Notes under the pieces: generated by a model
Databases searched by the model: none
The model's input: the letters and a program-made list of their open reading frames with translations, nothing else
What the model was told of the DNA's origin: nothing
Shown here: piece by piece, positions 10,697 to 41,850 of the stretch
Layout: the number at the start of each line of letters is the position of its first letter
How positions within the stretch are numbered: the first letter of the stretch is position 1
IMG/VR virus record: IMGVR_UViG_3300037258_000279
Coordinates: 29,665-93,664 of that record
From: a virus
Length of the DNA: 64,000 bases
Direction: 5' to 3' (one strand)
Made by a program: the position numbers and the translations under genes

Positions 10697-10701
10697 AATT
10701 T

Positions 10702-10786: not shown

Positions 10787-10792
10787 GTGATC

Positions 10793-10868: not shown

Positions 10869-10872
10869 ATAT

Positions 10873-10948: not shown

Positions 10949-10953
10949 ATGGT

Positions 10954-11029
10954 TGGCTGCGGCGGAACGGATTCGAACCTTCGACCTGCGCGCTCAAAAC
11001 GCGCTGCTCTACCGCTGAGCTACGCCGCA
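10954..11029 (-). tRNA. tRNA-Gln(TTG)
   Basis: Acceptor TGCGGCG/CGCCGCA, encoded CCA. Anticodon arm GCGCG-TTTTGAG-CGCGC. Confidence 0.93.
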
Positions 11030-11035
11030 ACAAAT

Positions 11036-11109
11036 TGGCAGGGCGGCTCGGATTCGAACCGAGGCGAACGGAGTCAGAGTCCGTTATGCTGCCGTTACAT
11101 CACCGCCCA
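11036..11109 (-). tRNA. tRNA-Gln(CTG)
   Basis: Acceptor TGGGCGG/CCGCCCT with a T-T first pair, encoded CCA. Anticodon arm ACGGA-CTCTGAC-TCCGT. Confidence 0.9.
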
Positions 11110-11116
11110 TCAAAAC

Positions 11117-11191
11117 TGGTGCCGGTAGAGAGGATTGAACTCCCGACCTTCGCATTACAAATGCACTGCTCTGCCGCTGAGCTATACCGGC
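11117..11191 (-). tRNA. tRNA-Thr(TGT)
   Basis: Acceptor GCCGGTA/TACCGGC, encoded CCA. Anticodon arm GTGCA-TTTGTAA-TGCGA, outer pair mismatched. It abuts tRNA-His with no gap. Confidence 0.9.
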
Positions 11192-11267
11192 TGGGGTGAG
11201 TAGTGGGGATCGAACCCACGAATGATCGGTTCACAGCCGACCGCGTTAGCCACTTCGCCATACCCAC
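11192..11267 (-). tRNA. tRNA-His(GTG)
   Basis: Acceptor GTGGGTA/TACTCAC, discriminator C73, and a G immediately upstream that would give the G-1:C73 pair diagnostic of tRNA-His. Anticodon arm GTCGG-CTGTGAA-CCGAT. Encoded CCA. Confidence 0.93.
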
Positions 11268-11279
11268 CACGAAAATGCT

Positions 11280-11351
11280 ACCCGGTGGTCTTGCCTTGAA
11301 ACGACGCCCCACGCGTGAGACGGACAGGTATCGAAACCTGCATCACCGGGT
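11280..11351 (-). ncRNA. tRNA-like fold without a normal T arm
   Basis: In the gap between tRNA-Cys and tRNA-His an 8-bp closing stem (ACCCGGTG/CACCGGGT) encloses a 5-bp hairpin CAGGT-TTCGAT-ACCTG and a 6-bp hairpin CGTCTC-ACGCGT-GGGGCG, 72 bases in all. Size and layout resemble a cloverleaf, but there is no T-loop consensus, no U33 and no CCA. It could be a decayed tRNA or a tRNA mimic. Confidence 0.35.
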
Positions 11352-11356
11352 TCTTT

Positions 11357-11430
11357 TGGAGGTGCGCCGCGGAGTCGAACCGCGATTGCGGGATTTGCAG
11401 TCCCGAGCCTAGCCGTTCGGCCAGCGCACC
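11357..11430 (-). tRNA. tRNA-Cys(GCA)
   Basis: Acceptor GGTGCGC/GCGCACC, encoded CCA. Anticodon arm CGGGA-CTGCAAA-TCCCG. Confidence 0.93.
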
Positions 11431-11434
11431 AATC

Positions 11435-11510
11435 TGGCACCGGGGGAGGGATTCGAACTCTCGACACGCGGTTTTGGAGACCGCTGCTCTAGCCACTGAG
11501 CTACCCCGGT
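11435..11510 (-). tRNA. tRNA-Trp(CCA)
   Basis: Acceptor ACCGGGG/CCCCGGT, encoded CCA. Anticodon arm GCGGT-CTCCAAA-ACCGC. It reads UGG only, so it gives no sign of UGA recoding. Confidence 0.93.
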
Positions 11511-11513
11511 AGA

Positions 11514-12107
11514 TCAATAAACTCCGTTCCTGCTGTCGGTGCGAAGCCATTTTCTGACGGCCGCTTCTGATACGCCATATCTCGCGGCGACTTTGACTCG
11601 AGATGCCCGCACCACCATTTCCCGAAGCCGCTTTCCTTCGGGTCTGTCCGGGACCTTAGCTTTAGCCTGAGACCGACATCGATTGCTGCAAAACTTTAAG
11701 CCGGCTCGCAAAGGGGCGCCGCACTTTTCGCATGCTGCCCCATCGTCACGCGGGAGGGTCGCAATGTTCCTTCTCGTGACGCGACCATTACGCATAGATA
11801 GCGGGATTGTTGCCTCGTCAAAGCGCCGAATATTGTCTGGGATTCTGGTGCTCCCCTCATGCACCTCGTCGTGGCAGTTGTGACATAGCATCACACATTT
11901 TCTTGCCTCGTCCGCGACCCGCTTCCATGATCGCGGGACACCGTTGGACGCCATGCTAAATTTTTTCTGCGCCGGCTCGACGTGATGGAACGTCAAGGCG
12001 CGCATCGACTTCGCGTAACCGCAAATTCCACAACGGCCGCCGAACGCGACGACGAGCTTTTCTTTCATTCGTTGCCGCCAACGAACGACCGCAGCGCCAC
12101 CGCTCAT
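11514..12107 (-). CDS. HNH endonuclease inside the tRNA array
   Basis: 197 residues from ATG 12107, three bases past tRNA-Asn; the longer open frame runs through tRNA genes and is not coding. Residues about 22-80 form an HNH nuclease: CGICG, then LTFHHVEPAQKKF, then CHNCHDEVH. A four-Cys zinc finger follows (CEKCG...CSNRC, about 125-147), then a C-terminal helix-turn-helix (VAARYGVSEAAVRKWL). Nuclease plus DNA-binding tail is the design of a homing endonuclease, which would cut arrays lacking the insert and spread by repair. It splits tRNA-Asn from tRNA-Trp without damaging either. Confidence 0.85.
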   Translation of the reverse strand: MSGGAAVVRWRQRMKEKLVVAFGGRCGICGYAKSMRALTFHHVEPAQKKFSMASNGVPRSWKRVADEARKCVMLCHNCHDEVHEGSTRIPDNIRRFDEATIPLSMRNGRVTRRNIATLPRDDGAACEKCGAPLRAGLKFCSNRCRSQAKAKVPDRPEGKRLREMVVRASRVKVAARYGVSEAAVRKWLRTDSRNGVY

Positions 12108-12109
12108 TT

Positions 12110-12184
12110 TGGCTCCCCGAGCTGGACTCGAACCAGCGACCTGCCGCTTAACAGGCGGTTGTTCTACCACTGAACTACCGGGGA
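12110..12184 (-). tRNA. tRNA-Asn(GTT)
   Basis: Acceptor TCCCCGG/TCGGGGA, encoded CCA. Anticodon arm ACCGC-CTGTTAA-GCGGC, outer pair mismatched. Confidence 0.92.
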
Positions 12185-12293
12185 AAAAACTGAAAGAGAG
12201 TTGCCGAAGCTCCCACTGCCCGGGCTTTTCCGCGCGGGTTCGCCACACGATTTCTCGCTGGCGTGGCCCCGACGGACGGCTGCCCGTGTCGGA

Positions 12294-12368
12294 TGGAGCG
12301 GGCGACGAGAATCGAACTCGCGACATTCTGCTTGGAAGGCAGAAGCTCTACCCCTGAGCTACACCCGC
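12294..12368 (-). tRNA. tRNA-Gly(TCC)
   Basis: Acceptor GCGGGTG/CGCCCGC, encoded CCA. Anticodon arm TCTGC-CTTCCAA-GCAGA. The 109-base gap to tRNA-Asn holds several GC-rich hairpins but no T-loop consensus. Confidence 0.93.
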
Positions 12369-12442
12369 AATCTTGTGCTCGCCCCGGTCGGCGCTGTCGT
12401 GAACAGCATGGAGTGACTTGGCCACAACCGACCGGGACGAAT

Positions 12443-12518
12443 TGGTGCCGAAGAGTGGAATCGAACCACTGACACCCACGCCTTCAACGTAGTGCTCTAC
12501 CTGCTGAGCTACTTCGGC
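12443..12518 (-). tRNA. tRNA-Phe(GAA)
   Basis: Acceptor GCCGAAG/CTTCGGC, encoded CCA. Anticodon arm CTACG-TTGAAGG-CGTGG. Confidence 0.93.
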
Positions 12519-12610
12519 AAATTTCTCGGGGCTGGATTTGTCATTCCTCCGTTCCTTGCTAGCAGGGGGAGTCGCAGATACCAGCATACAGGATTGCGGC
12601 ACAGCCACCT

Positions 12611-12727
12611 TTAGGCTGGCGCTACCAGCCGCTGCGTCCTTGGTGTTTGGACGACCCGAGAATCTTCCGGCGACCGGACCAAGTTCTCATGCAGGAGATC
12701 CCGCCAAGGTCCGAACATTTGCATCAT
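12611..12727 (-). CDS. Possible small protein inside the tRNA array (38 aa)
   Basis: The 236-base gap between tRNA-Phe and tRNA-fMet holds an ATG frame with TAAGG five bases upstream. The product begins MMQMFGPWRDLLHENLV and ends VAPA. The helical N-terminus and good Shine-Dalgarno spacing argue for a real gene; the short length argues against. No family recognised. Confidence 0.35.
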   Translation of the reverse strand: MMQMFGPWRDLLHENLVRSPEDSRVVQTPRTQRLVAPA

Positions 12728-12754
12728 TGACGCCTTAGGGGCGTACCGCCGAGT

Positions 12755-12831
12755 TGGTTGCGCTGGCCGGCAATCGAAGCCGGCGACCTTCGGGTTATGG
12801 ACCCGACGAGCTACCTCTGCTCCACAGCGCG
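12755..12831 (-). tRNA. Initiator tRNA-fMet(CAT)
   Basis: Initiator hallmarks are present: C1-A72 mismatch (CGCGCTG/CAGCGCA) and three G-C pairs closing the anticodon stem (TCGGG...CCCGA). The D-arm sequence GGAGCAG...GGTAGCTCGTCGGG matches initiators. The loop is TCCATAA, so position 33 is C where canonical CTCATAA has U. CCA encoded. Confidence 0.9.
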
Positions 12832-12836
12832 TCAAA

Positions 12837-12912
12837 TGGTGGCAGGGGTGGGAGTCGAACCCGACGACCTGAGCGTTATGAGCGCACCGATCTACCGCTG
12901 ATCTACCCTGCT
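12837..12912 (-). tRNA. tRNA-Met(CAT), elongator or Ile2
   Basis: Acceptor AGCAGGG/CCCTGCC with an A-C first pair, encoded CCA. Anticodon arm GTGCG-CTCATAA-CGCTC with one T-T pair. Elongator Met, or Ile if the C34 is modified to lysidine. Confidence 0.88.
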
Positions 12913-12919
12913 ATCGAAT

Positions 12920-12994
12920 TGGAGCGGGCAATGGGAGTCGAACCCACGACCTCAACCTTGGCAAGGTTGCGCTCTGCCCCTGAGCTATGCCCGC
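12920..12994 (-). tRNA. tRNA-Gly(GCC)
   Basis: Acceptor GCGGGCA/TGCCCGC, encoded CCA. Anticodon arm CAACC-TTGCCAA-GGTTG. Confidence 0.93.
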
Positions 12995-12998
12995 AAAT

Positions 12999-13074
12999 TG
13001 GTGGAGGTAGAGGGACTCGAACCCACGACATCCTGCTTGCAAAACAGGCGCTCTCCCAACTGAGCTATACCCCC
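12999..13074 (-). tRNA. tRNA-Ala(TGC)
   Basis: Acceptor GGGGGTA/TACCTCC, encoded CCA. Anticodon arm CCTGT-TTTGCAA-GCAGG. First gene of the array in transcription order. Confidence 0.93.
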
Positions 13075-15755: not shown

Positions 15756-18700
15756 TTATGGATAAGGGTTCTGCGTGATCCCTTGAGCTTTTTGGGTCTT
15801 TTTCATTTCATAAGCGCGCGGGTCACTCATCTGCTCAACAGATTTTCTGATGGCCTCGATGATGTCAGAGGGCTTCTTAGCAAGCCCGGGATTCGCAATA
15901 ACGAGACGCTTTGCTTGATCTGTCAGCTCGGCTGCCTCGTTGGCATCGCCGGCAATGCGCGCGCGGGCTGCTCGCGTGATAAGCAATGCCGCATCGCGCT
16001 CGACACGCTGACGCAGTTCATCGTTTTGATGTTCAAGCCGATAGGCGTAGTCGGACTGTGCGTATTCCTGTTCCTGTTGGAGCGGTTGGAAGCCAAGCGC
16101 CTGCTTGGCTATATCCGCGCCCGGCATGTCGGCAGGACGGTCGAGCATAGTACCTTTTTGCGAAATTCGGCCTTGGTCGGATTCAAGCAATGCACGAGCC
16201 GGATTGCGAAGCGCCGATGGCAGAAGCTCCGCTGCGGCCGCGCCAGCACCCTGGGTCTGATCGCGCGTATAAGCGGCCTGCAACCGCTGATACAGCATCG
16301 AGGGAATGGTGCCAATGACATTGGTTGGGTCCATTTCTCTGGAGATGACATCGCCGAAACCGATTCGGCTCGAGAGATTTACACCTGCGAGCGAGGCGAT
16401 TGGGCCACGTAGCATGACGTCGGCCCCGGCCTTTGAAAATCCGGCATCAGACATCATCTCGCGCAGATGGGCGTCCGTCATCGGATCGCTGCCCCCATTT
16501 AGCATGCGCCCCAGGGCATCAGCGGCGGACTCGGCGTCTTGCGTGAATGGAAGTCCATAGGCGCCAGCGCCGAGCATCAGAGTCCCCATCATCCAAGCAA
16601 ACGCCGTCTTGCCTTCCGGGCCCATGTTTTTCATCAAACGAAAAGCCGTCGAGAGATAGCGCGTCTGAAAGCCGTGCAGCGAGAACAGGAGCGTTCCCAT
16701 CGGGCCGCGCATTACGGGAGAACGGTTTTCGCTACCCCACTCGTAGGCACCTTCCGACAGCATGAACCGGGAGAAATTCTCCGGCGTCAAACCATCACGC
16801 TCAACCATATCGCGGAACAAGGCACTGTGTTCGGCGAGCGGCTTCGCCATCGCCGCCAGCGTTTTTGGATTGCTGGCGAGCCGGTAAGAAGACAGTGCGA
16901 CAGCGGCACGATTGGCTTGGTCGACGATGCCGATATTCGAGGTGGCAATATCCATGGCACGGCGAAACCGCCCCGCCGCATCGCCAAACGTCGAGGCTTG
17001 CCGTTCGCTCAACGCACGCAGATCGTCGGCACCGAGCGCACGCAAGCGCCCCTCATTAGCGAGAGATGAGATGAGGGCTTTTTCGTCGGGCGTGCGTCCC
17101 ATTCGATCGAGATTGATGAAGAATCCATTCTTACGGTCAGCACCGGCGTGCCCATAAGCCTCGCGCAGCGCGCCAGCTAATGCGGCGCCGGCGCGCACCA
17201 TGCCAATGCCGGTCGAGAGTACGGGAGCCGCTGCCATCGGGGTATGCAGCGCGATTACCAGAGTCGACGATGGATTCATGGCGAGCGCGTAGGAAAACCC
17301 GATCTGAGCAGCATGCGTCGAGGCGCGCGAGAGAATGCCTTTTTGGTCTTCCTGCGCCCCACGCCACTTTTGCCAATAGTCGCGCACGCTTTGATGCGGA
17401 TGATTGTCTTGGATGTTATCGTAGGCTTCCTCCACGGCGTTATGATGCACCATGTTGGCCGCGTTGTGCGATACCTGCCAGATATGCGTGCCGATCGCGC
17501 GATCAAAATCCTGCGAATAACCCGGTGTGAGGTCGGCTCGGCGTTTGAAGCCAGCAGTCAGCGCCTCGTAGATCGAGTCCAGCAACGCTTCTTTCGCGGC
17601 ACCCGTTGTTGCCCGATAGCGGTCCAATGCCTCGCCGCCGACGAGGCGTCCGGATTTATCGTATTGAGCAGCTTCGCCTTTCGCCTGCTTGGTTTGCGTT
17701 CGGGTAAGACCCTCCGGCGGAGTCTTTTCCTGCATGATCTGCGAAATCATTTTGCCAGTGGCATCGCGTTCCATGAGCGCGAACAGTTTTTCGAGCGCCG
17801 GCATATCGATTTCGCGCAGGATGTCCGGCTTGCGGCGCAAATCTCCCGTTTCAATTATATGTGTCGGCGATTCCCATCGTCCCGGTCCGACGCGCTGGAA
17901 AGCACCAAATGCCGGCGCCCCTGTGTTATCTGGCATTGTGCCAAGTGCGGCGATACGGTTTTTGACTGCGGCAATATCGTCGGCGTTCCGCCGCGTGGTG
18001 CCGAGCCAGTCTTCCATCGAGCTTTTCTCAACGGTTTCGAACCATTTCACCTCGGGATAACCGCCGAGCGATTCAGGGTCTTGACCTTGTTTCGGCCGCA
18101 CGGCGACATAATAATCGCCAAAGCGCATGGCCGGAAAATAAGGGCGGTCCAACGCCCGCTGAGCCTCATGGAGCGCTGTCGCGAGGCGTGCCAGTCGATG
18201 GCCCTCCGGTGTACCGATACCTGCCTCGCGAGCCCCAGCGCTCACGGCGGCAGCAGTTAGATCGCCATTCCAGCCTTCGCGTTTCGCCATCGCCGACATG
18301 ATGGTGCGCCAGCCTTCGTCACCTAGCCGCAAGCTATCGTGAAACGCCTTTGTCTCTTGCGGTGATAGGAGATAGTCGTCACCAGGTTTTGACATGCGCG
18401 CTTGCCAGAACGACGTATTGTGCACGCGGATCGGCGCGCCATCATCGGGAGGGCGCCAGTTCCATTTTCGGGCAAGTTCGAGCGCCGCATAGACGCGATT
18501 TCGCGACGGCGAATCGAGGCTCACCAGCGAATCAGCGACAATTTTCCGTAGATTATTGCCATTTCGTGCCGCCTCATCGTCACGGGCGCGCCACGCATTC
18601 CAAAAGCGTGCCGACATATCATCCAGCGTTGCGAGCGTTCGCGGGAAGATCGAGAATCGCTCTACCGGATTAAGATTTTTGATCTGTCGCGTACCACGTC

Positions 18701-21700
18701 GAGCAAGTTCCGGAAGTGCCCGTTCCTCGGTCGTCGGTCCTTTACCGGAAGGTGCTCCGGGTGATCCCGATACTGAATCGATCAGTCCGGAAACCGCGTC
18801 GCGGTGGAGAGCCTCTTCCGGTGTCAGCCGTTGTTCTGGCGAAGTATTTCGTTCCGCTGCAAAATCGGGGCGGTCTTCGGCTAGACCGGCGACTGCTCCT
18901 TGCGCTTCGCCAGTTCCTGCTCGGCTCTCGATCGTTCCCGCTTCACGTCCGGATCGTCCTGCGGCAGGTTGTCTAATTCCTTCAGAAAGTCTTGCCATGC
19001 TTTCGTCGGGGCGAATGGTGTCGGCGGATCGATCAGACCGTGCATTGGCATCCTCTCTAGGCTTAGCATCAAAAAATGTCTGGGCAGCTCGCTGCACCCT
19101 GTCAGCTGCCTCCCGAATGATGTCACGAGCACCCGGCACGTCGGCCAGATCGCGTGACGACATGTAATCAATCACACCGCCGGAATCCAGTGCCCGATTA
19201 ATCAGGTCGGAATAAATGGAGTCCGCGTGTTCTTGTGTAATCTCCGCCGAATTAACAAGACGGTCTAGCCCACGAAAGACGGCATTTTCCGCAGTGGCAT
19301 AGAGGCCGCCGATTGCTCGCTCGGCGTCCCCCTGACTTCCCAACCATTCCTTGGCTTCCGGCGTCAACTGGGCGACATAGGTGTTTCCATCATGGCCGTG
19401 AGCAACGATAGTTCGAAGGCCCGGAAAGGCCAGCTGTCGCATGTCCTGTTCACTCAGGGAATTACCCAACGGGTGGTTGTGATGGACCACCATCGTACTG
19501 GACTGATCCTCAAGGCGCCCCACGAGGTCTGGTGTAAAAGCGACGTATTTCGGCGATGCCATCGTGTAGGCATGAGTCAGTTCACCGCGGTCCTGATCGA
19601 TCGCAGCCAAATGTTCATGGCCAGAGTTTTGTCCGTGATAGATGGTCCAGTTGCGCGCGGCGGTATGCGGATCGCCGGTCTGAGCGAAATCATCACGCAG
19701 GTCTGTGATGGCCGCACCGACGGGTGCCTCTTTGTCGTTGCCCTCGAACAGCGCCTGCCCTCGCATGACGCTTTCGCGCATCTTCGGGGTGATCTCGACG
19801 GAGTGGACCAATTTATTCGCTGGACCAGAAGCAAAATCTCGTGCGCCTCTTTCCGTGTTAAATTCCCGATAATCATACTGGTCGCCCGGCATGTATGCGA
19901 TCCATGTACCTTCTGAGTCCTGCGTAACTTTATACGGGCGCTGCTGCGCATTGATTTCGGAATCCTCGGCCTTCGCGCCCCACTTCTTGCTAAGGCTGTT
20001 CACGATCTGCGGCAATTGACGATCATAGAACGCCACCATGCCAGCACTGCCAACCTTCAGATCATCACCGCGCAGCGTTCCAGCGCCTTCCGGCTCGCCG
20101 TGGTCGCGGCCAACATTATCGACGATCTTTTTGGCGGCATCCTTGCCGACGATGTCCTCAAGCTGTTGCGGCGTGAGATCGCGGCGACCGAGCACTTCCT
20201 CGAAATCACCGGAGCGAGGACTGCCGCGCTTCCTGGCGCTGATCGTGTAGCGTCCGTCATCTTGCTTCGCGTATCTGATCTCGTCGATTTGTTTGCTCAG
20301 GTCGTACCGGTCCGCGTTCGTCGCGCCGGTATCCCAGGACAATTTTTGGTAGCCGTTTTCGGCGGCGTATCTGAGCAAACGCTTAACCGCAAGCTCCGGC
20401 CATGAGGTTTTGAAGGGAGCGTCCGGGACTAGATCGCCAGCCTCTGCCGCGTAGGCTGCATTGCGTTCACGTTGCAGCTCCTGGTTCCTCGCCAGCAGAT
20501 CTGGGTGCCTCTGCCAGGACGCCATTAGCGCAGCATCGCTGTGAAGGTATTTCGCCTCGGCGCGGATTTTCGCTTCGTCTTCGTTCGCGGCATCTACTTC
20601 GTAGCGATGTCCGGTGCGGGCATCCGTAACAACCCACTCTCCAAGCTCGTAGCCGTGAGTTTTGTTGACCCCAACCTTTTCTGCCAAAAGCTGCGGCGCG
20701 TCGCGGCGTTCAAGTTCCATCAAGACGCCATCCATATCATCGTCAATTTCGCTGACTGAGCGCCCTTTGTGTTGCCCCCGATACCCGCGCTTTCTTCCGG
20801 CCTGATGGAGATCGCTCTGAATCTCCGCGACGTGCAGCACCCTCTCGCCGTTCGGCCCAGTGCGATCGTCAAAACGGACATGCGCCAGGACGTTCGGCTC
20901 TTGCCAGTGACCTGAGCGGTAATCCTGCCGTTCAGCACCGCGCCGATTGCGCGCGAGCATCTGCGCTGTGTTGGCGATAACGGCCTCGTCGTCCGAAACG
21001 GAGTCATGCGTGATGGCGACGACCTCACCCTTCGCGTCCAGCACCTCGGCGCCATCCGGCCCCTTGTCACGGACCGTCCAGCCGGTTGTATCAATTTTTG
21101 GCTCGCGCTGCGGCATCGTGAGTAGAAGTTCGCGGTAATTCTCGCCACCAGGAAGACGGTAGTGGCCGTACTTTGCCGGGGCGCCGCTGAGTCCTTGGCG
21201 CGCCATTGTCTCGTCAACCATGCGACCGTGTAGCGCTTCGCGCTCTGCTGAAAGGCGGCCGCCCTCGTGGCGCAGGTCAGATGCGCGCTGCGTATCGTTG
21301 GCGTAGTGTGCGCTGCGCTCTTCGGTATCGACATCGTGAATGCGGCGGTTCAAATCCTCAAACGCTGCGGCATGTTCTTGTTGCGCCCGCGCATCTGGCA
21401 CGGTTTCGTCTCGCACTGGGCCGTGCATCACCTCCTGCACTTGGACATTGTTCTCGCGAACGGCTTGGAGCAGATCAGCCTTCGTCACCGCGCCCTTTTT
21501 GCTGTCCAAGAAATCGTTCACGCCCGTCCAATCGACTTCCTCTTTTTTGATCCCCGGCATGTTGCGGATCATGCCCTTCCAGGATTCAGGCGAGGCTTTG
21601 TCTAGCTTGGCGTTCTCGATGCCGCGTTCAAGCGCCGAGTAAAAGATTGGCGATGCTTCGGCCAATCCGCGCCGTGTTGGCGGCTCTCCAAAAGGCAATT

Positions 21701-24700
21701 CCGCCGTATTGTCTATGGGCTTGAACAATCCCTCATCGGCGTCTTTTTGCTGAACACGGGACCGGATGCGCCCACGCCCTTCCGCTTCGCGCGATGAGGC
21801 CGCCTGGCGCGCCGATTGTTCGGCGCCAGGAAGGACTACTTGTTCTCCGGCTGCGGTTGATTCTGTTGCCGGCTCGCGCCCAATGCCTTCACCGCGGACT
21901 TGATCGCCGCGAGTTGCGATCGCACCAGATTCTTCACGACGCGTCTGCGCTGCTGATTGAGCGGCTGATTCTGCAAATCGCGGAGTCGTTTCAGGCGCTC
22001 GCGACTGTGGTTCAGGTGTTGCTGAGCTTCGTTCATCGTCACCAATCCAGGGAATATCTTCTGCCGCAGCCACGGCGTCAATATCGCGCTCAATCTGGGC
22101 TCGGACTGTATCCGAATGAGCACCATCCGCGATGATTGCCTCACGCTCATGAATCATGGCGAGAAGATCGTCATTATGGGGATGGCTGGCCGGATCGATG
22201 CCCAGCGCTGAAGCGCGCGCTTCTAACTCGTTGTGATAAGGATTGCCCTCGTAGGCGCGTTTATGGTCTTCCCAATCCCGTAGTGCGCCAACATCGTCGG
22301 CGGAATAGCGCGCATTGCCGCGGAGCGTGTCATCGATCGCACTGTAGAGATCGCTAATGGTCGAATCGCTGGGCCGATTTGGATTATCGCGCGGGAGATA
22401 CCCGGCTTCCTGGGCGATTTCGCGCGCGTGGTCGTCGTTCATTCCGCGCCCGTCTTTGCGCACCAGCATGCCGTATCCCGGAATGAATTTCTTATGTGCA
22501 TCCATCGCGCGCAATTCGCCGGAAGGGTTAAGACCGCCGCGCGACGCCAGAAACTCCACGATGTTCATGGGACGCCGGGGGGCGTTCTCTCTTGAAGAAG
22601 GTGGCGTTGTTGCTGTCTCGGCAGCAACCGGTTTGGTGGTGTCGCCCTCTTTCAGCCAGGTCTTCAGCTCATCGAGCGACATCGGCGTGACATTCCCGAT
22701 GCGCTGTTCGCCTTTGCCATCGGAAAATGCCCCGACATAAGCTTGGTGCGCGCCCTGCCAGTCATTGAAGCCAAGCATAACTTTAGCTTCGTCGTAAGCG
22801 CCTGACGCCGGATCGATTTGGTCTATAACAAAAGCGCGCTGGCTATCATGGTTCGGCCCCATATAGGCATCCACATGTTCGCCGTCGGCAGCTTCGGTTT
22901 TTGATATGTAGCCGTAGTCGCTTGGAAGCTGTGCTGTCCAAGGTTGACCATCGGCACCGACACCATGACGTACTGAGCCTTCCGGGTTTTCCATGACGAA
23001 CGGAATCCCATGAAATGAGACGCGGCCCTTGGAATAATTCCCAGAATCAATTTGTCCTGGCGTGGGATTTGTTTCGGTTGTCGCGCGCGCCTGATCGATC
23101 TGCTGCGCGATTTCTTCCGGCGTGCGAGTACCGCGCGTCAGGGGTAGTTCGCCTTCAGGTCCAGGAGGCGACGGGGAAGGGGCCGCACCCCCCACCGGTA
23201 ACGGCGCCGACTTGTCCGGTGCCTCCTGGATTGCTGGCGGCTGGTTGATTTTTAAGTCAACCGGTGATGCCACAATAGGTTGATCCGGCGCCGCCGCTTG
23301 CGCTGGCTGGGGCTCTACCGGTTGTGCCTGACGGCGCGCCGCGATTTGATTCAGATCTTCGGCATATTGCCCGGCCGCTTCGGGTGTCGGGACGATCTGG
23401 CCAGGGTGAGTCGTCTTCGTCGCTTCCGCCTGCTGGATGATATCCTGTGGCGTGACCGGCGGCTGTGGTTGGGCCTGCGCCTCGAGTTGCGCCTTCGCCG
23501 CAGTCAGGCGTGCCTCAACCGGGGCGGCTGGCTGCCCGCGCGCGGCGGCCGCCGCGCTGGTCGCCTCGCCCTTAAGCGCGTCGAGCGCCGGGGATTGAGG
23601 CTTCGGTATCGGTATTGGTACCAATGGGGCAGGCCCGCTCGGCGGACCGCTTTCTGGAGAACCTCGATACCTTGAGACGGCATAGGCATTAATGCTGTAC
23701 TGGTTGCCGCTTGGATCGCCCAATATCACATCGTGCGCGGGGGTAAATCCCTGCACCTGCATCGGGATAACGTCATTACCGACCGGCATCGGGATCATTT
23801 CGCCAATCTTAGGCGTTCCTAGACCACCACGGACAGATGGTGCGGGCTGCGATTCCGCGGCGATGGCGGGCGGCGGCGGCGCTGGTGGTGGCGGATTAAC
23901 GCTCGCTGCCGCTGCTTCTGGGGTCGGATGTCGAGCATCTGTCACGATCCCGTCGGGGCCGCGTAATCCCCAAAGTCCCGTGGCCGGATCAAGCGCCACA
24001 TCCGGTTTTTCAGTCGGCGCTGTTTCGGGAGGGCCATGCGCGCGGTCCGATCCTGGAATATTGCCTGGTGGTGGAGGCCCAGGTGTCGATCTCAATGCGT
24101 GCGCGATACCGGCATGGACAATTGCGGGCGCGGCAGTCCCAACCACCGCGCCCGGAACGCCTGACAAGACGTCTTGGCCGATCGGCTTGCCTTCGGCGAC
24201 ATTCTCGACCGCTTTCTGACCGACTGCCACGGCAGGCTGCAACCCGAACGCCTGAAAGACGGCGTCTTTCAGCACATTCTTGAACGGTGCGAAACCGAAT
24301 AATCCATAGGACACGCCAGCGGCGCCGGATTCGATGCCGGTGCGCTTCAAGGCCAAACTCCATGCCGCTTCGTTGTCGCCCTTGGTTTCCTGCAATGCCT
24401 GGCCGAAATTCACGCCAAGACTCTGAATCGTGTTACCTGCCGCAGCGCCAGCCGCGGTGCCGGCGATGCCTGTCGCCCACGAAATCGGGTCTTCAGGGCC
24501 ACCACCCAGAGCAATACCGGCCAACCCGCCGCCGTAAGCCGCTGCCGCCGTCGGCGCCGCGGCGGCAAACTGATAGAGCGTCTTTTTCAGCAACGTAAGC
24601 GGCTTCCACAGATCACTCCCCTCGATCGGCTGCGCGGCCAGAAGATCTGGCTCCTGCACGTCCGGTTTTCCCCCCGTCACGGCTTGGCCGGTTTGCATGA

Positions 24701-25190
24701 CGCTCCGGCCAGCCTGAAAAAGACCGGCGATGGGGGCGCCCAGCAAGCCCGTGTCGCGCAGCGCTGGCTGAAGACCCGCCGCGGTATAGTCGATCGGCGG
24801 CGGGGCGGTCTGTCCGGTCTTCGTTTCTTTCGTCTCGACCGCCGGCGCTTCCTTGGTGCGCATCAGACCGTTCGGCGTCTGGACGAAACTTCCCGGCGCT
24901 AATGCGCCGATCTGGGCAGCATAATCTTCCTGCGAAAGTCCCTGGGTTGGAACAAAGGGTTTATCTCGCGTCCATTGCGCCGGCGTAGGTGGTTCATCCA
25001 AGAATTTAGCACCCGAAGGCAGCGGTGGAAGTCCGGGCGTTGCCGCTTGCGGTTCAATGAAACTTGCGCCTTTGGGAAGCGGTGGGAGAGTTGGTTCCTG
25101 ATCGGCAACCGGAATGGCACCTGCTGGCAGCGGCGGAAGGTCGCCTGATCCAGAATCAGGTATAGACGAATTGTCAAGCGGCGCTGCCAT
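15756..25190 (-). CDS. Giant polyvalent DNA-ejection protein (3,144 aa)
   Basis: The N-terminus has three copies of a PPLPxGA motif, then a Gly/Ala-rich membrane-like region (about residues 215-370). Residues about 720-845 match the pyrophosphatase-fold domain of phage polyvalent proteins (ENPEGSVRHG, YGYI, GEHVDAYMGP, KVMLGF). About 1370-1800 form another polyvalent-protein domain (HVAEIQSDLHQ, WPELAVKRLL, GMVAFYD, ITPKMRE). About 1850-1960 hold a JAB/RadC-like motif HHNHPLGNSLSEQD, a possible zinc peptidase. From about 2165 to the end is a long helical part with a hydrophobic stretch near 2630. Such proteins are packaged and ejected with DNA. ATG follows GGAGCG; it is the longest gene here. 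Confidence 0.8.
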   Translation of the reverse strand: MAAPLDNSSIPDSGSGDLPPLPAGAIPVADQEPTLPPLPKGASFIEPQAATPGLPPLPSGAKFLDEPPTPAQWTRDKPFVPTQGLSQEDYAAQIGALAPGSFVQTPNGLMRTKEAPAVETKETKTGQTAPPPIDYTAAGLQPALRDTGLLGAPIAGLFQAGRSVMQTGQAVTGGKPDVQEPDLLAAQPIEGSDLWKPLTLLKKTLYQFAAAAPTAAAAYGGGLAGIALGGGPEDPISWATGIAGTAAGAAAGNTIQSLGVNFGQALQETKGDNEAAWSLALKRTGIESGAAGVSYGLFGFAPFKNVLKDAVFQAFGLQPAVAVGQKAVENVAEGKPIGQDVLSGVPGAVVGTAAPAIVHAGIAHALRSTPGPPPPGNIPGSDRAHGPPETAPTEKPDVALDPATGLWGLRGPDGIVTDARHPTPEAAAASVNPPPPAPPPPAIAAESQPAPSVRGGLGTPKIGEMIPMPVGNDVIPMQVQGFTPAHDVILGDPSGNQYSINAYAVSRYRGSPESGPPSGPAPLVPIPIPKPQSPALDALKGEATSAAAAARGQPAAPVEARLTAAKAQLEAQAQPQPPVTPQDIIQQAEATKTTHPGQIVPTPEAAGQYAEDLNQIAARRQAQPVEPQPAQAAAPDQPIVASPVDLKINQPPAIQEAPDKSAPLPVGGAAPSPSPPGPEGELPLTRGTRTPEEIAQQIDQARATTETNPTPGQIDSGNYSKGRVSFHGIPFVMENPEGSVRHGVGADGQPWTAQLPSDYGYISKTEAADGEHVDAYMGPNHDSQRAFVIDQIDPASGAYDEAKVMLGFNDWQGAHQAYVGAFSDGKGEQRIGNVTPMSLDELKTWLKEGDTTKPVAAETATTPPSSRENAPRRPMNIVEFLASRGGLNPSGELRAMDAHKKFIPGYGMLVRKDGRGMNDDHAREIAQEAGYLPRDNPNRPSDSTISDLYSAIDDTLRGNARYSADDVGALRDWEDHKRAYEGNPYHNELEARASALGIDPASHPHNDDLLAMIHEREAIIADGAHSDTVRAQIERDIDAVAAAEDIPWIGDDERSSATPEPQSRAPETTPRFAESAAQSAAQTRREESGAIATRGDQVRGEGIGREPATESTAAGEQVVLPGAEQSARQAASSREAEGRGRIRSRVQQKDADEGLFKPIDNTAELPFGEPPTRRGLAEASPIFYSALERGIENAKLDKASPESWKGMIRNMPGIKKEEVDWTGVNDFLDSKKGAVTKADLLQAVRENNVQVQEVMHGPVRDETVPDARAQQEHAAAFEDLNRRIHDVDTEERSAHYANDTQRASDLRHEGGRLSAEREALHGRMVDETMARQGLSGAPAKYGHYRLPGGENYRELLLTMPQREPKIDTTGWTVRDKGPDGAEVLDAKGEVVAITHDSVSDDEAVIANTAQMLARNRRGAERQDYRSGHWQEPNVLAHVRFDDRTGPNGERVLHVAEIQSDLHQAGRKRGYRGQHKGRSVSEIDDDMDGVLMELERRDAPQLLAEKVGVNKTHGYELGEWVVTDARTGHRYEVDAANEDEAKIRAEAKYLHSDAALMASWQRHPDLLARNQELQRERNAAYAAEAGDLVPDAPFKTSWPELAVKRLLRYAAENGYQKLSWDTGATNADRYDLSKQIDEIRYAKQDDGRYTISARKRGSPRSGDFEEVLGRRDLTPQQLEDIVGKDAAKKIVDNVGRDHGEPEGAGTLRGDDLKVGSAGMVAFYDRQLPQIVNSLSKKWGAKAEDSEINAQQRPYKVTQDSEGTWIAYMPGDQYDYREFNTERGARDFASGPANKLVHSVEITPKMRESVMRGQALFEGNDKEAPVGAAITDLRDDFAQTGDPHTAARNWTIYHGQNSGHEHLAAIDQDRGELTHAYTMASPKYVAFTPDLVGRLEDQSSTMVVHHNHPLGNSLSEQDMRQLAFPGLRTIVAHGHDGNTYVAQLTPEAKEWLGSQGDAERAIGGLYATAENAVFRGLDRLVNSAEITQEHADSIYSDLINRALDSGGVIDYMSSRDLADVPGARDIIREAADRVQRAAQTFFDAKPREDANARSDRSADTIRPDESMARLSEGIRQPAAGRSGREAGTIESRAGTGEAQGAVAGLAEDRPDFAAERNTSPEQRLTPEEALHRDAVSGLIDSVSGSPGAPSGKGPTTEERALPELARRGTRQIKNLNPVERFSIFPRTLATLDDMSARFWNAWRARDDEAARNGNNLRKIVADSLVSLDSPSRNRVYAALELARKWNWRPPDDGAPIRVHNTSFWQARMSKPGDDYLLSPQETKAFHDSLRLGDEGWRTIMSAMAKREGWNGDLTAAAVSAGAREAGIGTPEGHRLARLATALHEAQRALDRPYFPAMRFGDYYVAVRPKQGQDPESLGGYPEVKWFETVEKSSMEDWLGTTRRNADDIAAVKNRIAALGTMPDNTGAPAFGAFQRVGPGRWESPTHIIETGDLRRKPDILREIDMPALEKLFALMERDATGKMISQIMQEKTPPEGLTRTQTKQAKGEAAQYDKSGRLVGGEALDRYRATTGAAKEALLDSIYEALTAGFKRRADLTPGYSQDFDRAIGTHIWQVSHNAANMVHHNAVEEAYDNIQDNHPHQSVRDYWQKWRGAQEDQKGILSRASTHAAQIGFSYALAMNPSSTLVIALHTPMAAAPVLSTGIGMVRAGAALAGALREAYGHAGADRKNGFFINLDRMGRTPDEKALISSLANEGRLRALGADDLRALSERQASTFGDAAGRFRRAMDIATSNIGIVDQANRAAVALSSYRLASNPKTLAAMAKPLAEHSALFRDMVERDGLTPENFSRFMLSEGAYEWGSENRSPVMRGPMGTLLFSLHGFQTRYLSTAFRLMKNMGPEGKTAFAWMMGTLMLGAGAYGLPFTQDAESAADALGRMLNGGSDPMTDAHLREMMSDAGFSKAGADVMLRGPIASLAGVNLSSRIGFGDVISREMDPTNVIGTIPSMLYQRLQAAYTRDQTQGAGAAAAELLPSALRNPARALLESDQGRISQKGTMLDRPADMPGADIAKQALGFQPLQQEQEYAQSDYAYRLEHQNDELRQRVERDAALLITRAARARIAGDANEAAELTDQAKRLVIANPGLAKKPSDIIEAIRKSVEQMSDPRAYEMKKTQKAQGITQNPYP

Positions 25191-36158: not shown

Positions 36159-39100
36159 TCACCAAGCGTCGTAGTTACAGGTGAACCCGAATTGGATCGT
36201 CCCCGACAGCGCGCCGACCGCAAGACCGGCGATGGCTTCGTTGATGCCCGCTTGGAGGACCGAGATTGAGGTCGCTCCCGCTCCAAGATTGAGCAACGGA
36301 AACGTATAGCCGGATGTCAGTGCGGTGATTCCCTCAAACGAGGTGATGGAGCACTGCCCTACGTCAATGCTCTCATTCGCCGTCGGATAAGGTAATGGCG
36401 TGATAATAATGTTGCCGGAAGCACCGGAGAGTGTCCCCGTGATAGTGCCCCTAAGCGTCACGCGCCGGCCATCGATTTCGTATGACGCCTCGTTGCCTGC
36501 TGCTGTGAAAGTGCCCGCCGTCACTGAACCGGCGAGGACCATGTTAAACGTGCGACCTTCTTGTGGACCAACGTTGTTCGTGCGCGCCGTATCGCTGTCG
36601 ATGACAAGCGTTGTGACGGTGCCGTGCTGATAGGTGAATGTACCGTTGTTATAGGTGGTGCTGGCGCCTAGATTGACACCCGTGTTGACCGATGCAAGGG
36701 TGCCCCCAACCTGATTGTAGCTAGCCGAGCCGCTCAGCGAGATGCCGATTGAACCCGTGTCGACCGGGTCGGTGCCCGTAATCCGCGCATGGAAAAGCGA
36801 AGCCGAACCGTTGCTATCGCTGATTCCCGTAAAGTGCGTCACGCCATCATAACCCGCCTGCGTGAACGCGCCCTGGATATTCATGGCATTGCATTTGTCG
36901 GCATCGAGGCCGCCATGCCATGAGAAGAAATTGCTTCCCGCGTTTACAGTCAAACCGGAACATTTGGCACCGCCAACCGGCGTGATTCCAGAATTTATTT
37001 CGATGCCGATGTTCGAGAGAACATCAGTCATGTCGTTGATGATTGTGCCTTCGCTATAGGCCGAAAAATAGATCGGTTCGTCGGCATAGATCGAGATGGC
37101 ACGTGAAACCGTCGCACCATAATTATTGTTGCCGCCAAATTCGATGGCGTGGGTTCCAGTGACCGGCGTAATCGGGGGGCCGCCAGTGAACGGGCCATTG
37201 TACCAAATATCCTCTAGGTCCGCGTACCAAGTCCCGCCGACTAGAAGCCCCTCCGTGAATGAATTCGGATACGGCGTAGTTACCAAACCAGAACTTAGAC
37301 AGTAAATCTTGTTCGCCATCAGCGTAGGGTGAGCGAAACTTCCGATGCTCGGAAATGTCACTTCTATGCACCCACTAGCCGCACTTGCGTTGTTGGCCGT
37401 GAACCAAGCTGGCCCCCTTAGATTCACCGGATTCGTGACTGCTGATTGCGGGAAGTCATACCCCCACCCGGTTGTCTTAACCGTCACCGATGAATTATTG
37501 AAATCGATGTTGATGGGGCCACCGCCGCCAGTGACAGTGCTGCTGATGACGTACTTCCCGCCGGCGGGATAAACGATCTGTAGACCAAGTGCTTCGCTGC
37601 CGTCGCGGATCGCGGTCTGCAAGCACGACGAAATATCCGTGGAATTGTTGAACGCGCAACCCCACTCGCGCACATCGGCGCGGTTTTGGTAGAAGTGCGC
37701 GATCCACGAATTTCCGTCGCCGGCCGTGGTGTTGGCGCATGAGCCGCCGTCGCTGATATACCCATTCGCCGCGCAGGTGCCGGTTTGCGGCGTATAGAAC
37801 AGCGGCGGCGCGCCGAAGCCAGCCGAAAAATCATCGCGCCAGACCCCGTTGGGGAATATTGCGGTCGCTATTGCGACTAGGGCCGCTTCGGTCGCGACAT
37901 GCGGCGCGAGATAGCTGACGAGGCCCGGCGCGCTCGTGATATTGTCCGCGAGGATGGTACCCGTCAGCGCGTTCGACGCATTCACTGCGCCAGCCAAATG
38001 CCAACCCAGATTGCCAGCCGACCCGCCGATGGCAGTGTCGTAGCTCAACACATAGCGATTGTATTGTTGAATCTCGCCGCCAACGAGCGCGACCGGTCCT
38101 GCCGTACTGTCCTGATAGACGGGTTCGGGAGTCGAACTGTTGAAACTGAAAGTAGCGGCGGCGGTATTGGTGAAACCGGCAATGACTTGCACCGACGTTC
38201 CCTGCAACGGTGCTGGTGCACCAGAGACGGCGGCAATCTGCGCGTTGGCCGATCCCGTTGTGACGGGCAAACTCTGTATTGATACGCCGCCACTGGCGCG
38301 CTGATATGCCGTAACGATCCAATTTCCAGAGCCAAGCGCCTGCGCCATGGCCGTGTCGCCAGCGCCGGTGACAATACTCGCGACGCCTGGCACGATCATC
38401 GACGTGGCGTTGTAGGTCAGCGTTAGCGCGCTTTGGAATGTCAGATATTTGACCGTGCCAGCCGCGGCCGAGGATCCGAACGAAGCGATCGTCGCTGTGC
38501 CCGTGATCGTGATGAGATTTTGCGGCACCGAGCCAAGGTCGACCGTCGTGGCGCTGGCAAGCGTCGCCACACCGATGATCGTGCCGGAACCTGATGCGCG
38601 CTGGTAAACCAACACGATCCAGTTGCCGCTCCCGAGATATTGGACGATGGCGGTGTCATTCGCGGCCACCGAGATGTTGGCCGCACCCGGAAGGATCATC
38701 GACGTGGCGTTGTAGACCAGCGATGACGCACCCGAAAACGTCAGGAACTTGATCGTGCCGACGGCTGCGGATGTGCCGAAGGACGAGATCGCATTCGTGC
38801 CGGAGATAGCGACGCCTGCTTGAGGCACCGAGCCAAGGTCGACCGTACCAGCACTGGCAAGCGTCGTGACCGCGCCGCCGCCGACTGGCGGCGTCCATAT
38901 GCCATTGGCCGTATCGAGCGCGCCGATCGTCGCCCAGGTCGACCCAAGATATTCTTGAAGCAGCGGCGGCGATTTGCTGGTGTTGATCCAGAGTTGATAT
39001 TGGAATGGGCTCGACGGCGCTGTCGAACTCACGATCGGCTGCCCGATGCGCAAGCTCGGCGAATTCGACGTCGTGCACGGCGCTGTGTTGGTCGGGCATC

Positions 39101-39248
39101 CTGTGCCCTGGTCGAGCGGCACGAAGTCCGGGACATTGCCCAGCGGCTGCGATGCCGGCGGCAAGCCGCTGAAGGTGCCCTGCGCCAGGACCGGCGCCGC
39201 AAGTCCTGCGACGATCAGCAACGCAGCCACAAATTTAACGAATCGCAT
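36159..39248 (-). CDS. Tail spike with Sec signal and beta-helix domain (1,029 aa)
   Basis: Residues 1-23 are a textbook signal peptide (RFVKFVAALLIVAGLAAPVLAQ), odd for a virion part. Residues about 85-110 resemble the FQYQLWINTS fibre module. Residues about 126-322 are two tandem copies of a module beginning TLAS-x-TVDLGSVPQ. A pectate-lyase-like beta-helix starts with DVREWGCAFNNSTDISSCLQ (about 530) and continues through Gly/Asn-rich coils. The C-terminus is a small beta domain with two Cys. Beta-helix spikes bind and often cut surface polysaccharide. Confidence 0.75.
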   Translation of the reverse strand: MRFVKFVAALLIVAGLAAPVLAQGTFSGLPPASQPLGNVPDFVPLDQGTGCPTNTAPCTTSNSPSLRIGQPIVSSTAPSSPFQYQLWINTSKSPPLLQEYLGSTWATIGALDTANGIWTPPVGGGAVTTLASAGTVDLGSVPQAGVAISGTNAISSFGTSAAVGTIKFLTFSGASSLVYNATSMILPGAANISVAANDTAIVQYLGSGNWIVLVYQRASGSGTIIGVATLASATTVDLGSVPQNLITITGTATIASFGSSAAAGTVKYLTFQSALTLTYNATSMIVPGVASIVTGAGDTAMAQALGSGNWIVTAYQRASGGVSIQSLPVTTGSANAQIAAVSGAPAPLQGTSVQVIAGFTNTAAATFSFNSSTPEPVYQDSTAGPVALVGGEIQQYNRYVLSYDTAIGGSAGNLGWHLAGAVNASNALTGTILADNITSAPGLVSYLAPHVATEAALVAIATAIFPNGVWRDDFSAGFGAPPLFYTPQTGTCAANGYISDGGSCANTTAGDGNSWIAHFYQNRADVREWGCAFNNSTDISSCLQTAIRDGSEALGLQIVYPAGGKYVISSTVTGGGGPINIDFNNSSVTVKTTGWGYDFPQSAVTNPVNLRGPAWFTANNASAASGCIEVTFPSIGSFAHPTLMANKIYCLSSGLVTTPYPNSFTEGLLVGGTWYADLEDIWYNGPFTGGPPITPVTGTHAIEFGGNNNYGATVSRAISIYADEPIYFSAYSEGTIINDMTDVLSNIGIEINSGITPVGGAKCSGLTVNAGSNFFSWHGGLDADKCNAMNIQGAFTQAGYDGVTHFTGISDSNGSASLFHARITGTDPVDTGSIGISLSGSASYNQVGGTLASVNTGVNLGASTTYNNGTFTYQHGTVTTLVIDSDTARTNNVGPQEGRTFNMVLAGSVTAGTFTAAGNEASYEIDGRRVTLRGTITGTLSGASGNIIITPLPYPTANESIDVGQCSITSFEGITALTSGYTFPLLNLGAGATSISVLQAGINEAIAGLAVGALSGTIQFGFTCNYDAW
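38285..38875 (-). repeat. Two tandem copies of a 300-base module within the spike gene
   Basis: The same segment (for example GATCATCGACGTGGCGTTGTA near 38395 and 38695) recurs with a 300-base period. Each copy encodes one module with TVDLGSVPQ at its start and WIVxxYQRASG at its end. The copies differ at many third positions, so the duplication is not recent. Confidence 0.8.
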
Positions 39249-39316: not shown

Positions 39317-39637
39317 CTAAGTCTCGAGCGCTTCGGCCAGCGGGAAGTTCGGCAGCACCGGGAGTTGCTTGCCCGAGGGCGACGCCGCTTCCTGCTGGTA
39401 GGACCAGGGACGTGGATCGCGGACAACACCCTCGGGGCCCGTTATGATGATAGGAGCCAGGAACCAGGCTGGGGAATCGTAATCTTCCGGGCGCACGCGC
39501 AAGTGGAGATTCTGCAAAGATGCGCCTCTAACGTCCCACTGCCATGAGAGGTCGGAGAGGTCGCGTAAAAAGCCAGACCTGTCGCAGATGCCGGTAGGTC
39601 GGAAGTCAAGCGGATTGGCTTGCTTATGCGGCCACAT
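39317..39637 (-). CDS. Protein of unknown function
   Basis: 106 residues; its ATG lies inside the end of the homing endonuclease gene (14-base overlap). The sequence is Trp/Arg/Pro rich (SDLSWQWDVRGASLQNLHL, then YDSPAWFLAPIIITGPEG) and predicted beta. It may be a small virion component; no family recognised. The overlap suggests the endonuclease inserted directly upstream and replaced its ribosome site. Confidence 0.55.
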   Translation of the reverse strand: MWPHKQANPLDFRPTGICDRSGFLRDLSDLSWQWDVRGASLQNLHLRVRPEDYDSPAWFLAPIIITGPEGVVRDPRPWSYQQEAASPSGKQLPVLPNFPLAEALET

Positions 39638-40478
39638 ATCCGTATGTCCTTCCTGTCCTAATCATCCGAACGGTTCTCGGAGTCACTTTGTACCGCTTTG
39701 CCAGCGACCTGTCACTTGCACCTTTGCTGATCGCCAGTTTTATCACGGCAACCGACTCGAGTTTTAGCGCGAAGGGACCGCCCCTCGCACGGCCACGCGC
39801 TGATCTATCTTCCATGTTCTGTTTTTGGGTGCCGTAATACAGATTGGTCGCTATTGCATTGGTCCTATTGTCATCCTTGTGAAGGACGCTCAAGCCAGTC
39901 GGGCGCGGACCTATAAACGCTTCTGCCACGGCCTGATGTACGGCAACGCTCTTCGAGCCTGCCTCCCCTACTGGGTTAATCCACAGATACCCATCACTAT
40001 TTTTGCTTCTTTTTAAGATCATGGCCCTTTTATATTTCAGGTTGCCGTTATGTAGATAACGACGCGCAAGCCTTCGCGCTCTGCCAAATGAGGAAATTTC
40101 ATAGTGCCCGTCATGCCTTGGGAGGGGCCGCCATTCTTCGCCCGGCAAACACCAGGCATCGGGCTTTGGGAATATCTTTTGCCTTTGCGTTTTGTTAAAT
40201 CTTTCGCGCTTCCTCCTAACATTAAATTCCGGCTTGAGCAGCGCAATCAGCCGCACCTCTTCATCTAGGATTTCATCAAAAGACACGCGCTCAACCAGCA
40301 CCCTGTACCGAAACATTCTCGGACCGTGTTTTCTGATTGCTAAGTGAAATGGATTTCGGCGCGCGCCAGTTGCAGCAGCTCTTCGCTGATTACGTATCCG
40401 AACTGAGATTGGCCAGGTGGTGCGACCGATATAGCGCTTACCATCAACGAGATCAGTGGCCTGATAGATAACAAACAT
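39624..40478 (-). CDS. Chimeric homing endonuclease: GIY-YIG + NUMOD4 + HNH + HTH
   Basis: 284 residues with four modules in order. Residues 1-90: GIY-YIG nuclease (IYQ at 4-6, YIG at 16-18, FRYRVLVERV, then DEEVRLIALLKPEFNV). Residues 112-140: NUMOD4 DNA-binding repeat (GEEWRPLP...YEISSFGRARR). Residues 165-230: HNH motif (VHQAVAEAFIGPRP, VLHKDDNRTNAIATNL, then NMEDRSARGR). Residues 245-276: helix-turn-helix (LAKRYKVTPRTVRMI). Each module is common in free-standing homing enzymes; both nuclease types together in one chain are rare. It sits between connector and spike genes in the late operon. Confidence 0.85.
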   Translation of the reverse strand: MFVIYQATDLVDGKRYIGRTTWPISVRIRNQRRAAATGARRNPFHLAIRKHGPRMFRYRVLVERVSFDEILDEEVRLIALLKPEFNVRRKRERFNKTQRQKIFPKPDAWCLPGEEWRPLPRHDGHYEISSFGRARRLARRYLHNGNLKYKRAMILKRSKNSDGYLWINPVGEAGSKSVAVHQAVAEAFIGPRPTGLSVLHKDDNRTNAIATNLYYGTQKQNMEDRSARGRARGGPFALKLESVAVIKLAISKGASDRSLAKRYKVTPRTVRMIRTGRTYGYVAA

Positions 40479-40503
40479 CGCAACATTTTACGCGATATTG
40501 TTT

Positions 40504-41850
40504 TTAGTTGAAATACCCGCTCATATCACCTGCCCAATAACTTGAAACTTTCTCGCGATCTTCCGACGCCGCCTCTTCCCACGCCGCTTCCGCCAACGCC
40601 AGTTTCGTCGCATGCTGGGCTGGCTTATATTTTTCCGCCAAGTCGGCCGCCAGGTATGAAACGAACACATTGTAGAACCGTTCCGGCATGTCGAGGATCT
40701 GCCCCCCAATCGGATTGGCATTCTGAATCCGCTTGAGCCGGAAAGCGATGAAAGCGAACCAGGGACCGGTCATCGAGCCGGGTGATGTCGGCGGCAGCAC
40801 GATCGTGCCGTTGGTGGTTGTCGGCATCGGACATACCGGCCAGGTGATGAGCCGCGGCGGCAGCACGCGATTGAACCAATATTGAGTCGGTCGGCCGGGC
40901 TCGAGTTTATTCGGCAGCATCGCGAAGTCGTTGCGGGATAGGGGCCATAGAAAAACGTCCGTGTATTGAGTGCCTGGCATTTGCGCCACGACGTTGGCTT
41001 GGCCGCCGTTTTCGAAAGCGCATTTTGTGACGCCTGCTATCCCGCTCGCCTGAATGGTGAATTCGTAGGAATTCTGTACCGATTGAATCGTGTAGATACC
41101 GGAGAGCGTAAGACCGCCGACATTGACCGGAATGCCGACCGGAAAAGGCGCCCCGACAGCCAGACCGTGCCCGGTCAGCACCACGGTGACGAGATCCGAC
41201 CCTGCTGTCGTTGTGAACAGTGGCGTGCCGCCACCGTTGGTCTGTGTCTCGAGCGCCGGCGTCGGCAACATAAATTGAAGATGAGAGGAATCGATCACGT
41301 TCGAAACGATGCTGAAACCGTTCGTCACCGACACGCCGCCAAGCCCTATCGGACAGCCCCAGAAGAGTGGATTGCCGGCGACCTGTCCGTGCGCGGGCCA
41401 ATACATCGTCGCCACCGAAGATCCCGCCACGGTGGAGAACACGTTGCCGGGTTGGATCACCAGGGGATCGCCATAGGGTTGAGCCACCAACGGCTTGCCG
41501 TTTTGCCCCACCAGCGCCGTCAGGACATTACCGACATTGGCGCCGGTCCCTCCCGCCGGCGTGTAGGTGCGCAGGTACGAATCAAGCAGGTCGACCGTGT
41601 CGGCTGGAAGGAGGTATTCCTGCACCCCCGGAATGAGCGGGATCATAATGTCCGGGTCGCCGACCTTCCACAGGTTGACGCCGCGGTTGGCAAAGGTCGA
41701 TGAAAGCCGATAATTCATCGAGCGGCGCGCGCTGATGACATGGCGCGTCTCAATCGATGGCCCCTCGATCTGGATGCGCTCGAAGGCATCCAGCATATGC
41801 TCGGAAAGAGCCGGGGTCCAATTCGCCACACCAGATGGGCCTTGCGCCAT
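40504..41850 (-). CDS. Head-tail connector / tail adaptor protein
   Basis: 448 residues, with GGAG seven bases before ATG. The ends match the podovirus adaptor family: an N-terminal helix (WTPALSEHMLDAFERIQI), then IPLIPGVQEYLLPADTVDLLD, and late in the chain DFAMLPNKLEPGRPTQYWF, LITWPVCP, and ILDMPERFYNVFVSYLAADLAEKYKP. A beta-rich insert of about 200 residues lies between, larger than in short homologues. It would ring the portal exit. Confidence 0.65.
   Translation of the reverse strand: MAQGPSGVANWTPALSEHMLDAFERIQIEGPSIETRHVISARRSMNYRLSSTFANRGVNLWKVGDPDIMIPLIPGVQEYLLPADTVDLLDSYLRTYTPAGGTGANVGNVLTALVGQNGKPLVAQPYGDPLVIQPGNVFSTVAGSSVATMYWPAHGQVAGNPLFWGCPIGLGGVSVTNGFSIVSNVIDSSHLQFMLPTPALETQTNGGGTPLFTTTAGSDLVTVVLTGHGLAVGAPFPVGIPVNVGGLTLSGIYTIQSVQNSYEFTIQASGIAGVTKCAFENGGQANVVAQMPGTQYTDVFLWPLSRNDFAMLPNKLEPGRPTQYWFNRVLPPRLITWPVCPMPTTTNGTIVLPPTSPGSMTGPWFAFIAFRLKRIQNANPIGGQILDMPERFYNVFVSYLAADLAEKYKPAQHATKLALAEAAWEEAASEDREKVSSYWAGDMSGYFN

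Follow-up and report, generated by a model that had tools for sequence, protein, structure and literature searches.

I-HmuI, MobA, MobE and I-PfoP3I nick one strand of DNA (PMC2988022; PMC3428280), and a review covering mobile elements of T4-related phages lists as an outstanding question how the single-strand nick of HNH homing enzymes starts recombination (PMC2988022). GIY-YIG homing enzymes use a single active site to place two nicks one after the other, which results in a double-strand break (PMC3161791). In I-TevI, I-BmoI and the T4 Seg proteins, an N-terminal GIY-YIG catalytic domain is followed by a linker and a C-terminal part (NUMOD1, NUMOD3, helix-turn-helix) that only binds DNA. The engineered MegaTev and TevCas9 (PMC5751168, PMC4117789) carry an I-TevI-like GIY-YIG domain fused N-terminally, in a single chain, to a second sequence-specific nuclease, namely a LAGLIDADG meganuclease or Cas9. 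Natural chains with GIY-YIG and a second unrelated catalytic domain are found in UvrC and in a Methanococcales fusion with endonuclease III (PMC1564403). As far as consulted, a survey from 2006 on the architectures of GIY-YIG proteins describes fusions with NUMOD1-3, helix-turn-helix, helicase and other domains in addition to the GIY-YIG/endonuclease III fusion, with no HNH fusion among them (PMC1564403). In the literature searched, there was no natural GIY-YIG and HNH homing enzyme, only the engineered MegaTev and TevCas9 (PMC5751168); the architecture may exist unremarked in UniProt and InterPro.

The homing protein encoded in the window, by which we mean the whole 64,000-nucleotide stretch analysed, taken from a virus record of 93,664 bases that belongs to an uncultured phage, shares features with each of these systems. 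It most closely resembles the I-HmuI-type NUMOD4-HNH_3 phage enzymes (PHROG 59/1492; PDB 1u3e), its best PDB match by sequence and fold, with the same order of NUMOD4, HNH_3 and helix-turn-helix over residues 109-284. Compared to I-HmuI, which is intron-encoded and has no GIY-YIG domain, the window gene is free-standing and its product has an extra nuclease joined at the N-terminus. That N-terminal part, followed by a linker and DNA-binding modules, resembles I-TevI, I-BmoI and the Seg proteins, the last of which are likewise free-standing; however, the C-terminal part here contains a second nuclease fold. The arrangement is also that of MegaTev and TevCas9, except that it is natural, has an I-HmuI-like HNH partner and is only a putative two-site cutter. 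UvrC and the Methanococcales fusion, by contrast, are DNA repair enzymes with other partner domains, devoid of NUMOD and HNH, and are not homing genes.

The initial annotation gave the coordinates of the gene exactly; it lies on the minus strand and starts with an ATG at 40478, before which there is no clear Shine-Dalgarno site. The gene belongs to a tailed-phage module with PHROG matches to terminase, portal, major head protein, DNA ejection protein and a DUF3383-type virion protein, and its G+C content of 0.51 is lower than that of its neighbours (0.59-0.61). It had been placed between connector and spike, which holds on the connector side, whereas the direct downstream neighbour is a 106-residue small gene and the long spike-like gene (36159-39248) comes only after it. 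Relatives of the small protein have CDxCGF-like Cys motifs. A scan for HNH/NUMOD4 relatives yielded an orthologue, termed L098, on IMG/VR contig IMGVR_UViG_3300010361_000015 (52.7 kb). No near relatives were found in viral_contigs by terminase, by the adaptor alone or by the small protein alone. The hairpin across the start codon (Table 1) may tentatively be taken as a translational control that could limit translation of the nuclease; it has no significant counterpart in L098. Elsewhere in the window, 35 tRNA genes covering nearly all amino acids form a one-strand array (8856-13074, minus), and a 3,144-residue ORF (15756-25190, minus), by its position a putative giant virion protein, is related over the stretch ~470-860 to phage proteins annotated as DarB-like antirestriction, minor head and endolysin.

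Table 1. Features of the homing gene and its surroundings (window coordinates)
Feature	Coordinates	Strand	Evidence and remarks
Small gene, 106 aa, CDRSGF motif	39317..39637	minus	directly downstream of homing gene; adjoins adaptor gene in relatives free of the homing gene
Homing endonuclease gene, 284 aa (GIY-YIG, NUMOD4, HNH_3, helix-turn-helix)	39624..40478	minus	ORF, Pfam, PHROG, structure model, orthologue
14-base overlap with downstream gene (ATGTGGCCGCATAA; L098: ATGTGGCCTCATGA)	39624..39637	minus	same length in both phages
GGAAGG, Shine-Dalgarno-like site of downstream gene, inside homing gene	39648..39653	minus	same sequence and 10-base spacing to ATG in L098
C-terminal helix-turn-helix, residues ~240-275	39654..39761	minus	HTH_28 16.7 bits, below cut-off 25; three helices in model; common to HNH relatives
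HNH_3 nuclease core, residues 179-222	39813..39944	minus	H181, H200, N212, N221 kept; L199 where I-HmuI has D74
NUMOD4 DNA-binding motif, residues 112-166 (Pfam 114-166)	39981..40145	minus	Pfam 32.8 bits, cut-off 23.4
Linker, residues 89-111	40146..40214	minus	largely low-confidence in model, fast-evolving
GIY-YIG nuclease domain, residues 1-88	40215..40478	minus	Y5, Y16, G18, R27, E74, N86 kept; Q31 where I-BmoI has H31
Hairpin across start codon of homing gene	40474..40499	minus	z -2.2; 9/200 shuffles fold equally well
Tail-adaptor (head-tail connector) gene, 448 aa	40504..41850	minus	upstream of homing gene

The Pfam GIY-YIG profile (PF01541) matches residues 2-51 with 17.2 bits, below its cut-off of 22.6. 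PHROG homing endonucleases match residues 1-79 (E 7.6e-9), and the homing protein scores 66 bits with a profile made from eight other phage GIY-YIG enzymes. Moreover, in a Foldseek search of the predicted structure against the PDB, second and third place went to the I-TevI catalytic domain (probability 1.00, TM 0.71-0.73 of target, rmsd 2.0-2.4). Altogether, these matches, the fold and an orthologue above the Pfam cut-off indicate that the GIY-YIG domain is real despite the sub-cut-off score. Every residue that is invariant across nine GIY-YIG proteins is retained, Y5, Y16, G18, R27, E74 and N86 among them; in I-BmoI, the counterparts of Y5, Y16, R27, E74 and N86 are Y6, Y17, R27, E74 and N87 (PMC3161791). 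Judged by sequence and predicted fold, the domain thus has the fold of the GIY-YIG superfamily as well as its catalytic Tyr, Tyr, Arg, Glu and Asn. The position of I-BmoI H31 is occupied by Gln in the window copy and by His in L098. Since His is present in 14 of the 21 homologues with a residue at this position and missing from the other seven, it is not a strict requirement.

In the C-terminal half, NUMOD4 is followed by HNH_3, both above their Pfam cut-offs (for HNH_3, 37 bits against 24.8), which is the architecture of I-HmuI-like enzymes, and PHROG HNH endonucleases match residues 109-282 (1.7e-35). The HNH residues H200, N212 and N221 (H75, N87 and N96 of I-HmuI) are kept, as is H181. In contrast, I-HmuI Asp74, named as a catalytic residue (PMC12724721), is replaced by Leu in both copies (L199 in the window copy). 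Of the HNH relatives retrieved, 30 have Leu at this position, 30 have Asn and 9 have Asp, with the reservation that one of the retrieval patterns included VLHKDD.

The AlphaFold2 model of the whole protein (17-row alignment, mean pLDDT 83.5, pTM 0.54) has well-predicted parts on both sides of a low-confidence stretch at residues 84-102, and Foldseek search with it against the PDB returned I-HmuI first (E 3e-7). Sequence and predicted structure together establish two nuclease folds in a single chain, in the order first read from the sequence: GIY-YIG and HNH around NUMOD4, with a terminal helix-turn-helix that scores below the Pfam cut-off. The initial annotation had also said that both motifs look complete, which is true of Y5, Y16, G18, R27, E74, N86, H181, H200, N212 and N221 but not of the I-BmoI H31 and I-HmuI D74 positions, where Q31 and L199 stand. 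Separate translation of the HNH half was considered and rejected, as residues 80-117 contain neither ATG nor GTG and only a TTG at residue 111.

The L098 protein is 47% identical over its whole length, with the same four-part order, and its GIY-YIG (31.0 bits), NUMOD4 (45.4 bits) and HNH_3 (50.8 bits) domains all exceed the Pfam cut-offs. Between the two copies, for which silent sites are saturated or nearly so, dN is 0.51 in GIY-YIG, 0.53 in NUMOD4, 0.40 in HNH and 0.50 in the helix-turn-helix, compared to 0.97 in the linker. The similar values in both nuclease domains and the roughly twofold faster linker argue that neither nuclease is being lost, and the pattern indicates that both domains are constrained; profile searches for the loss of one nuclease, which would have refuted the initial annotation, likewise gave no sign of it. 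The phage of L098 has a second homing gene (L158 952-1974, minus) with GIY-YIG, NUMOD3 and a weak AP2 match; encoded on the opposite strand, it is flanked by a tail gene and the DUF3383-type gene.

We propose, at about an even chance, that the window gene is a free-standing homing gene encoding an I-HmuI-like NUMOD4-HNH-helix-turn-helix enzyme with an N-terminal I-TevI-like GIY-YIG domain, and that both nucleases cut the uninterrupted junction. The main rival, somewhat doubtful yet of real weight, is a homing endonuclease in which one nuclease cuts and the other domain, either the HNH without its Asp metal ligand or the GIY-YIG weakened by Q31, serves as a DNA-binding or positioning module. 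Q31 and L199 may leave room for one weak or inactive nuclease: the Leu at the I-HmuI D74 position is common to both copies, and H108F of Eco29kI, the Phe mutant of the equivalent active-site His, is dead (PMC1952068), which raises doubt about the GIY-YIG activity of the window copy. However, His200, Asn212, Asn221, Tyr5, Arg27, Glu74 and Asn86 are kept in both copies, dN is even across the domains, and substitutions of both the Q31 and the L199 type occur in other family members, all of which speak against this rival.

The initial annotation had described the gene as overlapping the next one by 14 bases and as fitted to its insertion site. The overlap is exact and recurs in L098, where the homing gene is again flanked by the adaptor and the small gene. 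In five relatives without the homing gene (L039, L089, L090, L186, L187), found by DUF3383 and adaptor scans, the adaptor is followed directly by the small gene at gaps of -26 to +14 bases, and the small proteins lack the MWPH start; L186 and L187 share their small protein and have almost identical adaptors, and so do not count as independent. The adjacency of the two genes in these relatives marks the homing gene as a free-standing insertion, and the shared insertion point and overlap bear out the fit to the site. An intron-borne gene was rejected, since no Rfam match was found in the 36-45 kb region at E up to 1, and the flanking genes are separate and adjoin in the relatives without the homing gene. 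The adaptor (40504-41850) is about twice as long as in these relatives (448 versus ~220 residues) because of an inserted domain, which in the window has a weak match to an endosialidase beta-barrel; in several relatives (L018, L074, L053, L072, L021 and others), the DUF3383-type virion protein shows a match to a similar domain.

The 3' end of the homing gene appears to supply the ribosome-binding site and first codons of the next gene, so that the homing gene would be hard to lose cleanly. Similar to T4 segC, segF, mobA, mobC and mobE, it is inserted between conserved genes, with a gene overlap and likely translational coupling (PMC2988022). However, the T4 genes encode a single nuclease each, and segC, segF, mobA and mobC each overlap the ORF upstream of them (PMC2988022), whereas the window gene overlaps the downstream one. 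Between the two phages, the homing gene (47% identity) is about as diverged as the genes beside it (41-43%), which suggests old residence at the site, fits this better than recent mobility and counts against the proposal. Such divergence, together with the overlap and the GGAAGG site that two diverged phages have in common, would also agree with a resident gene that no longer homes and is kept for driving translation of the small gene, cutting rival phage DNA or regulating its neighbours. We regard this as improbable: coupling by itself would not keep two active sites intact, and the relatives without the homing gene manage without it.

Among 94 distinct HNH-type proteins collected, GIY-YIG is present in only two, the window copy and L098, both at the same site, and a Pfam scan of the nearest GIY-YIG proteins from phages showed an HNH domain in none of them. 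The homing protein matches 815 phage records and the orthologue 1,462, of which only MT835606 reaches at least 80% coverage (tblastn, 88% of the orthologue); it was rejected as a dual member, having HNH only. L012 and L152 were also rejected, as their apparent second domains are not HNH by Pfam, and all matches in plasmids, genome_contigs and 398 bacterial genomes had a single nuclease. In Enterococcus phage EH802P1 (L011 608-2738), two ORFs that are both annotated as terminase large subunit flank a gene with GIY-YIG and NUMOD3, an arrangement that resembles an intron or an interruption of the terminase gene. Each half of the fusion alone is common in phages, as would suit a recent accident or an assembly artefact joining two homing genes, but the same fusion at the same site on a separate contig with 47% protein identity makes this a negligible prospect, refuted for practical purposes.

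Returning to the proposed two-nuclease homing enzyme, NUMOD4, HNH and the helix-turn-helix would most likely bind the uninterrupted junction of adaptor and small gene in a co-infecting phage without the gene, where a conserved EDRE-like stretch near the C-terminus of the adaptor is a candidate target. On the simplest reading, the HNH domain would nick one strand at the junction, and the GIY-YIG domain, tethered by a flexible linker of ~20 residues, would cut nearby within reach of the linker, so that the nick becomes either a double-strand break or a short cut at two sites. Recombination repair would then copy the homing gene across, as in known homing. A further proposal, which we hold to be possible at slightly less than even chance, is that an HNH nickase gained a GIY-YIG domain and thereby became the natural counterpart of MegaTev, with two nucleases in a single chain that makes its own double-strand break or short two-site cut.

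The same gene at the same spot in a distant second phage suggests a natural version of the two-cut enzymes so far built by engineers. If this is true, the protein would be a natural, compact and already linked dual nuclease of the MegaTev sort, only 284 residues long. The overlap with the next gene, common to both phages, shows how a homing gene could become hard to delete. Finally, an HNH enzyme with two nucleases makes the question of how a nick leads to recombination testable, and, if the proposal holds, it would show one natural way in which HNH enzymes that nick can bring about homing.
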